64,000 bases of DNA from contig NZ_CP084090.1 of the NCBI RefSeq assembly GCF_020217425.1, positions 2,232,001-2,296,000 on the forward strand, given 5' to 3'. The position numbers and the translations under genes are program-made. The notes beneath the pieces were generated by a model, which made no database searches, was not told where the DNA came from, and saw nothing but the letters and a program-made list of their open reading frames with translations. Origin of the DNA: Halomicrobium urmianum. Its GTDB lineage: Archaea > Halobacteriota > Halobacteria > Halobacteriales > Haloarculaceae. Positions 26,690 to 56,217 of the stretch are shown one piece after another (positions within the stretch are counted from its first letter, which is position 1; every line of letters starts with the position of its first letter).

Positions 26690-29305
26690 TCACTGACCGG
26701 CGGAGCCGGGACAGCTCTCGACCGTTCCGCTCTGGGGGAGATCTCCCGATCCGCCGCCGTAGGTGCACGTCTCCCCGCCCGCGCCGACGACGGCACCGGT
26801 CACCTCGTAGGTGCTCGAGGACCACGTGGCTGCGACCGGTTCGCCGGGTTCCTTGAACTCGGTCGCCGTCACCGACGTCCCGGCCGAATCGCCCTCGGGG
26901 GCGAACGTGCTGCCGGTCCACTCCCAGCGTACGAAGGGCTCTCCCGACGGGCAGTCGCCGGATCCCGCCCCGCCGACTGACGGCGCGCCCTCGTCGGTCG
27001 TACAGAGGAGGACGTAGCTGATGGCGGCACGGTCGTCTTCAGTCGGGGTCTCGGGCGTATCGGTTGGCGTAGCGGGCGTGTCGGTTGGCGTCTCAGGCGT
27101 GTCTGTCGGAGTATCGGGTGTGTCAGTCGGAGTCTCAGGCGTATCGGTTGGCGTCTCAGGTGTGTCAGTCGGAGTATCGGGTGTGTCGGTTGGCGTGTCG
27201 GGGGTATCGGTTGGCGTCTCGGGCGTGTCTGTCGGAGTCTCAGGCGTATCGGTTGGCGTCTCAGGTGTGTCAGTCGGAGTATCGGGTGTGTCGGTTGGCG
27301 TGTCTGGGGTGTCCGGGGTGTCCGGAGTGTCAGGCGTGTCAGGCGTATCGGGCTTGTCCGGCGTATCGGGCTTGTCCGGCGTATCGGGCGTATCTGGAGT
27401 GTCAGGCGTATCTGGCGTTTCCGGTTCCTCGGTCGGGGTCTCGGGCTTTTCAGTCGGCGTTTCGGGTAGTTCGCCTGGCGTCTCCGGCTTCTCAGTAGGT
27501 GTCTCGGCCTCCTGGGTCTGCGTCGCGGGCTTCTCCGTGGGCGCCTCCGTCGGTGTTCCCTTCGGCGTCTCGGTCTCCGCCGCCGTCTCGTGGTCCGTCG
27601 GCGTGTCGGCCTCCGTTCTCGTCTCCGTCGGCGTGTCCGCCGCCGGCGTTGCGGTGTCCTCGGGGGTCTTCTCCCGCGTCTCGGTGTCCTTGGGAGTCCG
27701 TTCGGTCGTCTCGGTCTTCGTCGGCGTTTTCTCGGGCGTCTCGGTGTCCTTGGGCGTCCCGGTCCGCTCGCGCGTTTCGGTGTCTTTCTCCGTGGCGGTG
27801 TCTTCCGCGGCGCAGTCCCCGTGGACGACGTACGTGGCACCGGCGTCGGGGTGCGGGTCGTTGTACGGCGCACCGATGACGACGTCCTCGTCGCCGTCGC
27901 CGTTCAGGTCTTCGCCGTCCGCGACGGCGCGGCCCGCGCGGTCGCCGTCGGCCTCGCCGAGCAACGTCGCCTGTGCGTCGGCCAGGCTCCGGTTCGCTTC
28001 GTCCGTGCCGCCGGCGACGATGTACGCCGCTCCGGCGTTCGTCGCGGCGGCGTCGGAGCCGGGCGCACCGACCAGCAGGTCGTCGACGCCGTCACAGGTG
28101 ACGTCGCCGGAGCCCGCGGCCGACACGGAGTAGCCGGCCTCGTCGCCGGCGGCCTCGCCGGTCAGCCTCACGTCCGCGTCGGACAGCGAGTTGCTCCCTT
28201 CGGGGTCGCTCGATCCGAACACGACGTAGGCAGCGCCGGCGTCGGTCCCAGCGGCGTCGGCGCCGGGTGCACCGACGGCGTAGTCGTCGCGTCCGTCGTC
28301 GTCGTAGTCGAACTCGCCGGCGACCGATGCGCCCGCACGCTCGCCGCCGTCGCCCTCGTGTCGGGCGTCGGCGCCGGCCAAGTCGATCTGCCCGGACCGA
28401 TCAGCGACGCCGGAGAGCAGGTACGCCGCGCCCGCGTCGCCGTCGTATCCCGGCGCACCGATCAGTGCGTCACTGGCACCGTCGCCGCCGGTGTCACCGA
28501 CGAACGCGACCGACGTGCCAGCTTCGTCGCCGGGTGATTCCCCACTGTACCTCGCCGCGGCGTCACCCAGGGTATCGCCGGTCGACGGGTCGCTGACGTA
28601 GTACGCGGCCCCGACGGCTTCGTCCTGGCCGGGGGCACCGACGAGTAGCCCGGTGCCGTTCTCCGGGGTCGCGACGGCGAAGCCCGCCGACGCGCTCTCG
28701 CTCGTCCCCGCCAGCGCGTAGCCGGCGTCCGAGAGCGACTGCGTGCCGTCTGCGCTCCCGTCCGCCTCGACGACGTAGACGACCCCGGCGCTGGAGCCGG
28801 CAGCGGTGTCCCGACCGGGCGCACCGATCACGACCTCGTCGCCGTCCGTCCCGTCGACGTCGCCGACGGCGACCGACCAGCCTGCGGCGTCGCCGGTCGC
28901 TTCGCCGACGAACGTCGCGTCGGCGTCTGAGAGGGAGACGTCGCCCGCCTCGACTGGTCCGTAGAACAGGTACGCGGCACCGGCCAGGTCCTCGCTCAGG
29001 TCGCTCTGGGGCGCGCCGATCAGCAGGTCGGTTCGCCCGTCGTCGTTCACGTCACCCGTCGCGACCGACCAGCCCGACGTCTCGTTCGCGCGCTCGCCGA
29101 GCAGCGTCGTCTCGGCCGCGCCGAGACCGCGCTCCCCGCTGAGCGGCGCCGTCGCCTGATCGCTCTGGGACAGTGCCGGGTGACTCATTGCTGTCGCCCC
29201 GTCGGGCGAGGCCGGTGCCGTAGCGGGCGGTACGACGAACCCTGCGACGAGCCATCCTGTCACGACGATCGCGGCGATCGAGGCCAACTGACGATGTCGA
29301 GCCAT
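26690..29305 (-). CDS. Large secreted FG-GAP beta-propeller protein with Thr/Pro heptad stalk
   Basis: 871 residues. A Sec leader (about residues 1-32) is followed by seven FG-GAP/integrin-alpha repeats. Each has the form 'GxxAGxSVAxGDxDxDGxDDxxIGAP', with Asp-rich calcium loops (DVNDDGRTD, DYDDDGRDD, DLNGDGDED), consistent with a complete seven-bladed propeller. From about residue 500 to 755 there is a Thr/Pro/Glu/Asp stalk with 3- and 7-residue repeats (DTP, TDTPETP). The C-terminal 110-residue domain has four Cys, suggesting two disulfides. It is probably a surface adhesin or calcium-binding envelope protein. An out-of-frame GTG with an ideal Shine-Dalgarno lies just upstream. Confidence 0.88.
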   Translation of the reverse strand: MARHRQLASIAAIVVTGWLVAGFVVPPATAPASPDGATAMSHPALSQSDQATAPLSGERGLGAAETTLLGERANETSGWSVATGDVNDDGRTDLLIGAPQSDLSEDLAGAAYLFYGPVEAGDVSLSDADATFVGEATGDAAGWSVAVGDVDGTDGDEVVIGAPGRDTAAGSSAGVVYVVEADGSADGTQSLSDAGYALAGTSESASAGFAVATPENGTGLLVGAPGQDEAVGAAYYVSDPSTGDTLGDAAARYSGESPGDEAGTSVAFVGDTGGDGASDALIGAPGYDGDAGAAYLLSGVADRSGQIDLAGADARHEGDGGERAGASVAGEFDYDDDGRDDYAVGAPGADAAGTDAGAAYVVFGSSDPEGSNSLSDADVRLTGEAAGDEAGYSVSAAGSGDVTCDGVDDLLVGAPGSDAAATNAGAAYIVAGGTDEANRSLADAQATLLGEADGDRAGRAVADGEDLNGDGDEDVVIGAPYNDPHPDAGATYVVHGDCAAEDTATEKDTETRERTGTPKDTETPEKTPTKTETTERTPKDTETREKTPEDTATPAADTPTETRTEADTPTDHETAAETETPKGTPTEAPTEKPATQTQEAETPTEKPETPGELPETPTEKPETPTEEPETPDTPDTPDTPDTPDKPDTPDKPDTPDTPDTPDTPDTPDTPTDTPDTPTDTPETPTDTPETPTDTPETPTDTPDTPTDTPDTPTDTPETPTDTPETPTDTPDTPTDTPETPTDTPATPTDTPETPTEDDRAAISYVLLCTTDEGAPSVGGAGSGDCPSGEPFVRWEWTGSTFAPEGDSAGTSVTATEFKEPGEPVAATWSSSTYEVTGAVVGAGGETCTYGGGSGDLPQSGTVESCPGSAGQ
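27036..27545 (-). repeat. Coding minisatellite of the Thr/Pro stalk
   Basis: 21-base units encoding TDTP[ED]TP repeat about thirteen times at 27036-27305. 9-base units encoding DTP (with DKP variants) repeat at 27300-27425, and looser heptads TPTEKPE extend to about 27545. Units differ at silent and D/E positions in a patterned order, showing expansion by duplication of blocks of two to four units. Confidence 0.85.
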
Positions 29306-54461: not shown

Positions 54462-55451
54462 ATGGCGGACTGTGACAAGTGCGGCGCGCCCGCCGCCATG
54501 CACGCCGCGTACTCGGGGCTGCACCTCTGCGAGGACCACCTCTGCCGGTCGGTCGAGGAGCGGGTCCGCCGCCGCGTCCGCGAGGACAACCTGGTCCCGC
54601 GGGACGCGACGCCCGAGGACCCCGAGACGTGGGTGATCGGGCTCTCCGGGGGCAAGGACAGCGTCGTCCTCACGCAGATCCTCCAGGAGACCTTCGCCGA
54701 GGATCCCCGAATCGAACTCGTCGCCCTGTCGATCCACGAGGGCATCGAGGGGTACCGCGACAGGTCGCTGGACGCGTGTGAGGAACTGACCGACGACCTG
54801 GGGATTCGCCACGAGGTCGTCGCCTACGAGGACGAGTTCGACGTCCGGATGGACGACGTCGTCGAGGACGACCCGGAGGGCATGGCCGCCTGTGCCTACT
54901 GCGGGGTCTTCCGGCGCGACGTCCTCTCCCGCTACGCGGAGGACCTGGACGCCGACAAGCTCCTGACCGGGCACAACCTCGACGACGAGGCCGAGACGGC
55001 CCTGATGAACGTCCTAGAGGGCGACGTCGACCAGATGGCCAAGCACTTCGACGCCTCGCTGGGCCCCTTCGCGGGCGGGGACGCGGAGCGGACCCGCGCT
55101 GAACAGGACCACCACATTCCACGCGCGAAGCCCCTGCGGGACGTCCCCGAGAAGGAAGTCGCCCTCTACGCCCGCTTCCGGGACCTCCCCGCGCACATCA
55201 CCGAGTGTCCCCACGCCGAGGAGGCCTACCGCGGCGAGATACAGGAGCTGATGCTCGGTCTGGAGGAGAACCACCCCGGGACGCGCCACTCGATCATGGC
55301 CGGCTACGAGAAGCTCGCCGCGCTCGCCGCCGCCGAGTACGGCGGCGACGCCGACGACCGCGAGTTCGGCGAGTGCGACCGCTGCGGGGCGCCGACGGCG
55401 AGAGAGCTGTGCCGGAAGTGTTCGTTGCTCGACGCACTCGAAGCGGTTTAG
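54462..55451 (+). CDS. ncsA: tRNA 2-thiolation enzyme NcsA
   Basis: 329-residue N-type ATP pyrophosphatase that thiolates the wobble uridine of tRNA, using sulfur relayed by SAMP proteins activated by UbaA. The N-terminal zinc ribbon starts CDKCGAPAAMHAAYSG with CEDH. The PP-loop is GLSGGKDSVVL. Cluster or catalytic Cys lie in AACAYCGVFRRDVLSRYA and ITECPHAEEAYRGEIQ. The C-terminal ribbon has CDRCGAPTARELCRKC. The gene ends LLDALEAV-stop; a diverged second copy of that end follows downstream. Confidence 0.92.
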   Translation: MADCDKCGAPAAMHAAYSGLHLCEDHLCRSVEERVRRRVREDNLVPRDATPEDPETWVIGLSGGKDSVVLTQILQETFAEDPRIELVALSIHEGIEGYRDRSLDACEELTDDLGIRHEVVAYEDEFDVRMDDVVEDDPEGMAACAYCGVFRRDVLSRYAEDLDADKLLTGHNLDDEAETALMNVLEGDVDQMAKHFDASLGPFAGGDAERTRAEQDHHIPRAKPLRDVPEKEVALYARFRDLPAHITECPHAEEAYRGEIQELMLGLEENHPGTRHSIMAGYEKLAALAAAEYGGDADDREFGECDRCGAPTARELCRKCSLLDALEAV

Positions 55452-55541
55452 CGCGAGAGCGTTGAGCAGCGAACATCGCGAACTGTTGGACGCACTGGAG
55501 GCCGTGTAGGCCGAGAGCGTCGAGAAGCGACCGTCGTGAGC
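55426..55541 (+). repeat. Imperfect tandem duplication of the ncsA 3' end
   Basis: Two 58-base units (55426-55483 and 55484-55541) match at about 44 of 58 positions. Each encodes LDALEAV-stop in the same register; all differences within those codons are synonymous. Only the first copy is the functional end of ncsA. Confidence 0.75.
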
Positions 55542-55644
55542 GACTGACGCACAGCGGCTCGGGGGCACTAACCCGATCGGTCTCGTCCTTCACTCGGCGA
55601 GCGACGCGAGCCGGAAGTCGGAAGACACGTACCGTGGTCCGTAG

Positions 55645-56217
55645 TCACGCCTCGTCGTCGTCGGTCGGGTGACCGAGTGCGACGTCGAAGGCGTCGGCGT
55701 CGTCGAGGTCGCAGGCGAGACGGTCGATGCGCTCTCTGAGGTCGGCCAGTCGGCTCTGGACGCGGACGCGGTCCGCCGCGTCGCCCCCGTCCGACAGGTC
55801 GGCGTAGTGCTCAGCGAGCCCGTAGTAGCGATCGAGCAGCCGGTCGTATCGGGCGCGGCGGTGGAGGCGCTCGACGGTCTCCCGGAGGTCGGGCGCTGCG
55901 ACCGGCGTCTCCAGACGTGCGTCGAGGCGGTCGTCGGCCGCTGCGTCCGCGGCGACCAGGCCAGCGACCTCGAAGTGCAGCCCCTGCTCGTCGCGGTGAC
56001 GGAGCGCGGCGTCCAGTGTATCGGTTTCCACGCCGCCGACGACGAGGACGGAGACGTCCCGGTCGAGGCTGGCGCTCTGTTCCCGCTCGTCGCGAGCGGT
56101 CCGGACCGGCCACTCTTCGCGGAGCGCGGCCGTGATCCGTCGACTCCGGTCGGGGTCGGCGACGGAGACGAGGACGACGTCGGAGGTCGACGTCACGGTG
56201 AAGGTCGTCTTGCTCAT
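55645..56217 (-). CDS. HalX-domain protein with degenerate receiver
   Basis: 190 residues. Residues 10-105 follow the response-regulator fold (VVLVSVADPDRSRRITAALR at the N-terminus, 'VAGLVAADAAADDRLDA' later). The phosphoacceptor region reads DVSVLVVGGVETDTLD, with Gly where the acceptor Asp belongs. Residues 115-180 form the HalX domain (ARYDRLLDRYYGLAEHYADL, then LADLRERIDRLACDLDDADA). It is thus a pseudo-receiver, probably an adaptor rather than a phosphorelay output. It sits beside the DUF7504-like gene. Confidence 0.8.
   Translation of the reverse strand: MSKTTFTVTSTSDVVLVSVADPDRSRRITAALREEWPVRTARDEREQSASLDRDVSVLVVGGVETDTLDAALRHRDEQGLHFEVAGLVAADAAADDRLDARLETPVAAPDLRETVERLHRRARYDRLLDRYYGLAEHYADLSDGGDAADRVRVQSRLADLRERIDRLACDLDDADAFDVALGHPTDDDEA

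Follow-up and report, generated by a model that had tools for sequence, protein, structure and literature searches.

How does a housekeeping gene come to have two consecutive 3' ends? The ncsA gene of Halomicrobium urmianum poses this question, as it is followed downstream, in its own orientation and as expected of a displaced 3' end, by a second version of its last codons. We analysed this locus within a stretch of 64,000 nucleotides of the chromosome (the window; NZ_CP084090.1, positions 2,232,001 to 2,296,000), against the rest of the genome and against other genomes of the Haloarculaceae. The product of the gene is the NcsA/Ncs6 tRNA thiolation protein: its full-length match to the NCBIfam equivalog NF047749.1 ('tRNA 2-thiolation protein NcsA') scores 622 bits, above the curated cut-off of 500.

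A second, synonymous 3' end directly behind ncsA

The second end (unit 2) adjoins the first (unit 1) at a confirmed spacing of 58 bases, takes up 55483-55540 with its flank and spells LLDALEAV-stop with the codons CTG TTG GAC GCA CTG GAG GCC GTG TAG (Table 1). The two units differ at 15 of 58 positions, 7 of the 27 coding ones and 8 of the 31 in the flank; an earlier note on this DNA, made from the sequence alone, thus had the unit length and spacing right and the number of differences (about 14) slightly low. The seven coding differences change six of the nine codons and all of them are synonymous, as that note had also claimed, for a stretch that proved to be one codon longer than the LDALEAV-stop it named. 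The longest run of bases identical between the units is 9, only the 31-base flank of unit 1 separates the two coding ends, and no third copy of the ncsA end was found. With the repeats near 27-28 kb set aside, units 1 and 2 rank near the top of the short-range 58-mer repeats in the window. No short-period repeats in this DNA are stronger than those at 27040-27400, many of which are offset by a multiple of 21 bases and which probably lie inside a coding region.

Table 1. Features at the 3' end of ncsA (positions in the window)
Feature	Position	Strand	Remarks
ncsA, tRNA 2-thiolation protein, 329 aa	54462-55451	+	C-terminal end CRKCSLLDALEAV-TAG
Stop-spanning palindrome	55418-55476	+	Coding end pairs with flank; -40 kcal/mol as RNA, z -5.8
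Unit 1: nine final ncsA codons (55425-55451) and 31-base 3' flank	55425-55482	+	
Unit 1 flank arm	55452-55482	-	Reads RCSLLNALA in reverse, resembling the inverted end of ncsA (KCSLLDALE)
Unit 2, extra ncsA 3' end, LLDALEAV-stop	55483-55509	+	+1 frame relative to ncsA
Unit 2 flank	55510-55540	+	23/31 bases match unit 1 flank; weak palindrome, z -1.5; reverse reading holds SLLDAL

Pattern counts in this genome and in 146 genomes of the family rule out that the second end arose by chance. A degenerate 27-mer for LLDALEAV-stop (TAG) has two matches in the 4.25-Mb genome, compared to none for the reversed-pattern control, and among 146 Haloarculaceae genomes there are 41 with the D form of this 27-mer and 5 with its E form, two copies being present in the window genome only. 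A longer pattern of 33 bases, which covered end and flank and allowed at most 3 mismatches, matched one of the 146 genomes, that of the window, and matched it twice.

Coding divergence and duplication followed by drift

We compared two models over the 58 bases, one in which both units were coding while they diverged and one in which a duplication left unit 2 unconstrained. The both-coding model was favoured by a likelihood ratio of 25-50 under one rate for coding part and flank, and by a ratio of about 200-1800 when the flank rate was free. Drift was simulated at five levels, 8000 times each, and at least 7 differences without any amino-acid change were obtained 0, 0, 0, 0 and 1 times; neither at ncsA nor in the class of gene ends described below do the differences fall regardless of codon phase. 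The argument of the earlier note that a slip duplication followed by drift would not keep the protein is supported by these runs, of which at most 1 in 8000 per drift level reproduced the pattern.

A local tandem duplication of 58 bases with subsequent drift, the all-synonymous pattern at ncsA being a matter of luck, is therefore unlikely in our estimate, and there are observations that it would explain well. The coding part and the flank differ at an equal rate (7/27 and 8/31), as unselected DNA would, and both units have the codon GCA and the stop TAG, which are rare among the ncsA ends of relatives. Recent identical tandem copies are present at aspS of the congener G003 and elsewhere, and one gene end of G003 (C2 221933-222457 and downstream; L246 around 1932) carries a 41-base tandem array with six extra copies of its end EM(A/S)IRLA-stop. 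Against these observations stand the likelihood ratio of 25-50 or more, the simulations and the same synonymous excess throughout the class. Local duplication is unlikely for the diverged copies only, as identical extra ends elsewhere show that it does happen.

The origin that we consider probable is that unit 2 is the displaced 3' end of a diverged ncsA allele, and that end-of-gene recombination placed the two ends one behind the other. The differences between the units would be synonymous because both ends closed working genes while they diverged. That both units had once been selected as coding was already proposed in the earlier note, and the likelihood ratios and simulations support this, as do the class-wide synonymous signature and a discordant aspS end presented below.

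ncsA ends in related genomes

Neither unit together with its flank occurs in any of the 145 other genomes of the family, so that no donor allele was found for ncsA; nor is there a close relative of the window strain among the 146 family genomes, which include six sampled congeners (G001-G006). Over the 27 coding bases, a stretch too short to settle a tree, units 1 and 2 are separated by 7 differences, whereas the nearest congeners (G005, G006) are 4 differences away from unit 1 and 5 from unit 2. Among 19 distinct ncsA ends that encode LLDALEAV, none of the 171 pairs combines at least 7/27 differences with at least 23/31 flank matches, and alleles of two species would thus not normally look like units 1 and 2.

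Replacement of the whole gene by the allele of a divergent relative, as the earlier note had it, is not supported: the identities of ncsA to its congeners are not clearly discordant from those of the neighbouring genes, and the direction of replacement is likewise unsupported. Inspection of 110 ncsA loci including that of the window revealed no other convincing second 3' end, a 20/27 match at L023 being not above its shuffles, and the pattern went unmatched in viral contigs. In G001 and G003 (L004 and L003), whose ncsA genes are 98.7% identical, unrelated flanks begin in the last codons (GTG TAA and GTC TGA), and on the 3' side of the G003 gene some 390 extra bases lie ahead of the next conserved gene.

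Second 3' ends at other genes

We scanned 1451 genes (simple ORF calls) in 1.66 Mb of this chromosome by comparing, with nucleotides only, the last 27 bases of each gene to the 300 bases downstream that lie outside predicted genes. At a threshold of at least 20 matches, second 3' ends were detected at 8 of the 1451 genes, compared to 0-1 for mismatched pairs of upstream and downstream sequences (8 and 6 controls). The same scan conducted on the first 27 bases found no second 5' end at any of the 1451 genes; long N-terminal matches, considered as duplicated 5' ends, look like neighbouring paralogues. Seven of the eight second ends are codon-like, those of ncsA, aspS, argF, aroA, a dUTPase-like protein that is below its family cut-off, and a 344-aa and a 662-aa protein without NCBIfam match. 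Together these seven ends have 21 synonymous and 9 other codon differences (p = 7e-7 versus the 26% expected), while the eighth match, WRGTASAA (20/27), has 0 synonymous and 4 other ones. A protein-level scan added ileS, purH (with two extra copies) and a gene of the dehydratase family; its matches at 1500208 and 2060613 were not counted in the class, as they resemble tandem paralogues. The rate is lower elsewhere: a single positive among 506 genes near other ncsA loci and another among 328 genes in 400 kb of G003, and none among 113 and 52 genes of 20-kb stretches.

Extra ends recur in relatives. They are present at 12 of 27 aspS loci, at 7 of 24 argF loci (9 with two seen in other comparisons) and, for the 344-aa gene, in 5 of 24 genomes (two of which are listed twice, making 26 loci), the window genome included in each case; these rates are not genome-wide ones since the three genes were chosen as positives in the window genome. 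At 25 of 75 such loci, from the relatives and the window genome, 30 copies with at least 19/27 matches display 73 synonymous and 26 other codon differences. The synonymous share expected for single random changes is 26% (p = 8e-23, a value that is too small since related copies were counted as independent), and nine of the 30 copies have at least three codon changes and zero amino-acid change. Three of the 30 are identical to the gene end, which indicates that fresh local duplication occurs too.

The frames into which these copies are offset also bear on whether unit 2 is used. The +1 frame, in which unit 2 lies, is open from the ncsA stop to the unit 2 stop, so that a +1 frameshift at GTT TAG C could append a peptide with a second LLDALEAV end. 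We give this reading very little credence, as the extra ends of other genes are spread over all three frames (11/11/8 for the 30 copies) and are thus not read through one frameshift, and as none of the other ncsA loci among the 110 has a convincing second end.

The sequences between gene and extra end bear on a further explanation, namely that the extra ends are traces of a mobile element or of site-specific integration at gene 3' ends, with the element since lost at ncsA. The spacers of argF, ileS, the dUTPase-like gene and the 344-aa gene indeed hold a repeated element (CTTTTTCGCCCACGTTTTT ... AAAAAGGTGG), and integrases classically leave displaced gene ends behind (Islander; available text of PMC4383910). 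We nonetheless consider this origin decidedly unlikely. The spacers of aspS, aroA and purH are without the element, and the sites are many different genes. At ncsA, too, the element is absent, the spacer consisting only of the 31-base flank, and the attL/attR arrangement of an integrase between repeats with an identical core is not seen, no identical stretch between the units being longer than 9 bases. The intergenic element, in which CTTTTTCGCCCACGTTTTT is followed by a palindrome with GAGCGNAGCGAG and by AAAAAGGTGG, occurs at gene ends in several haloarchaea, where its right end often abuts a stop codon or the displaced end of a gene (L286/L287; G000 gene ends at 1571269, 1613433, 1716718 and 2159874 of C1). 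Its left motif is present 12 times in the 1.66 Mb, 11 of these being intergenic.

A palindrome across the ncsA stop codon

The coding end of ncsA pairs with its own flank in a palindrome that spans the stop codon (Table 1). When the stop-spanning palindromes of the 1451 gene ends (1.66 Mb) are ranked by z-score, ncsA comes second and aspS third (chance 1e-4). The last paired base of the ncsA hairpin is 55476, and unit 2 starts seven bases on, at 55483. It is only the extremes of stop-spanning hairpins that coincide with stacked ends, since such hairpins are in general not commoner than intragenic ones (z < -3 in 2.6% versus 3.2%). The strongest stop-spanning palindrome of the 1451, at G000 C1 1910538 on the minus strand, has a flank that repeats the coding end in inverted form, and a direct second end was not seen there; as a genome-wide class, inverted end copies show a weak excess only.

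The strength of the unit 1 hairpin (-40 kcal/mol, z -5.8) would befit a selected RNA signal for 3' end formation, in which case unit 2 would be a second, decaying copy of the signal and no gene end. This is highly improbable: unit 2 folds weakly (z -1.5) and its changes are at codon-synonymous sites, and a comparable hairpin is absent from the other ncsA loci (best z -2.8 among 109). The hairpin was also rejected as an intrinsic terminator, as no T run follows it (bases from 55477, CGCGAACTG). A search of Rfam gave one sub-threshold match, to the c-di-GMP-II-GAG riboswitch at window positions 55566-55671 on the minus strand (24.3 bits versus a gathering threshold of 40), which is probably due to chance.

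Gene ends that disagree with their genes

We also compared gene bodies, last codons and flanks between congeners. The aspS gene of the window genome is 90% identical to that of G005, but identity falls to 72% over its final 39 bases and to 15% over the initial 40 bases of the flank; the corresponding values versus G002 are 86%, 90% and 80%. The end of aspS in the window genome therefore matches another congener than the body of the gene does. Flank modules of aspS are common to different genera and families, with 77% identity over 137 bases between G002 and G009 and 83.5% over 97 bases between G009 and G039. In argF of G001 versus G003, 60-base bins are 93-100% identical except for the bin with the last ~55 bases (88%), and the extra copy of the G003 argF end carries G001 codons at several places within that last bin. 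In G005, aspS itself ends much as it does in the sister G006, and the divergence is in the extra copy; this argues that 'the old native end left behind', the course proposed for ncsA in the earlier note, is not a general rule.

Discussion

The second end of ncsA is best explained by joined ends of diverged alleles, and we infer the steps of breakage and repair that could have joined them. Recombination at the end of a gene would involve homologous pairing on the gene side and an illegitimate junction, with short or no homology, on the far side, and because of the latter a second end with its own flank would be added rather than exchanged. What set this off would probably have been a break, and its repair, at the strong stop-spanning palindrome of ncsA. 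Possible break sites include the stop palindromes of ncsA and aspS and the repeated intergenic elements of argF, ileS, the dUTPase-like gene and the 344-aa gene. As for the likeness of the two flanks, each might have been re-templated from its own coding end, as a palindromic image of it; this is a conjecture.

Parts of this scheme resemble known systems, as described in the available text of the sources cited. Homology-facilitated illegitimate recombination has been invoked to account for the orphan immunity genes and displaced 3' ends at Rhs and type VI secretion loci (PMC5361080). There as here, the 5' part is constant, a new 3' end stands in front, old ends are stacked downstream and one-sided homology is proposed; the genes there encode variable toxins, whereas those described here are housekeeping genes in which the same end protein is kept and only the last few to ~40 codons are repeated. 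Islander genomic islands (PMC4383910) likewise leave direct repeats behind, one being the restored end of the gene and the other its displaced fragment, but here no island or integrase lies between the copies, the ncsA spacer is 31 bases and the copies are 26% diverged. Template switching at quasipalindromes and inverted-repeat arms (PMC8604942, PMC7202029) is similar in that short stretches are rewritten or duplicated in connection with a palindrome, yet alone it does not yield direct copies whose divergence is synonymous only. Finally, haloarchaeal PATEs and other transposase-free mobile repeats (PMC3119063) are comparable as non-coding palindromic elements of intergenic DNA, but are described there as being without target duplications. 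Our search on haloarchaeal gene remnants, palindromes and duplicated ends, which covered the available text of mostly open literature with subscription journals largely outside it, returned no report of stacked housekeeping-gene ends.

Exchange of DNA between haloarchaeal species is stated in the available text of PMC4500145. It is conceivable, if doubtful, that end-of-gene exchange is recurrent in haloarchaea, with stacked synonymous 3' ends serving as a reservoir for swapping the last codons and flank of a gene, both within the cell and between species or families, and leaving behind a datable record of alleles. If this were true, haloarchaeal housekeeping genes would carry fossils of earlier or foreign alleles after their stop codons. 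These would offer a direct and countable record of recombination between lineages and would mark the 3' ends of genes as hot spots for junctions, and they would be a warning that the last codons of a gene may have a different history from the rest of it.
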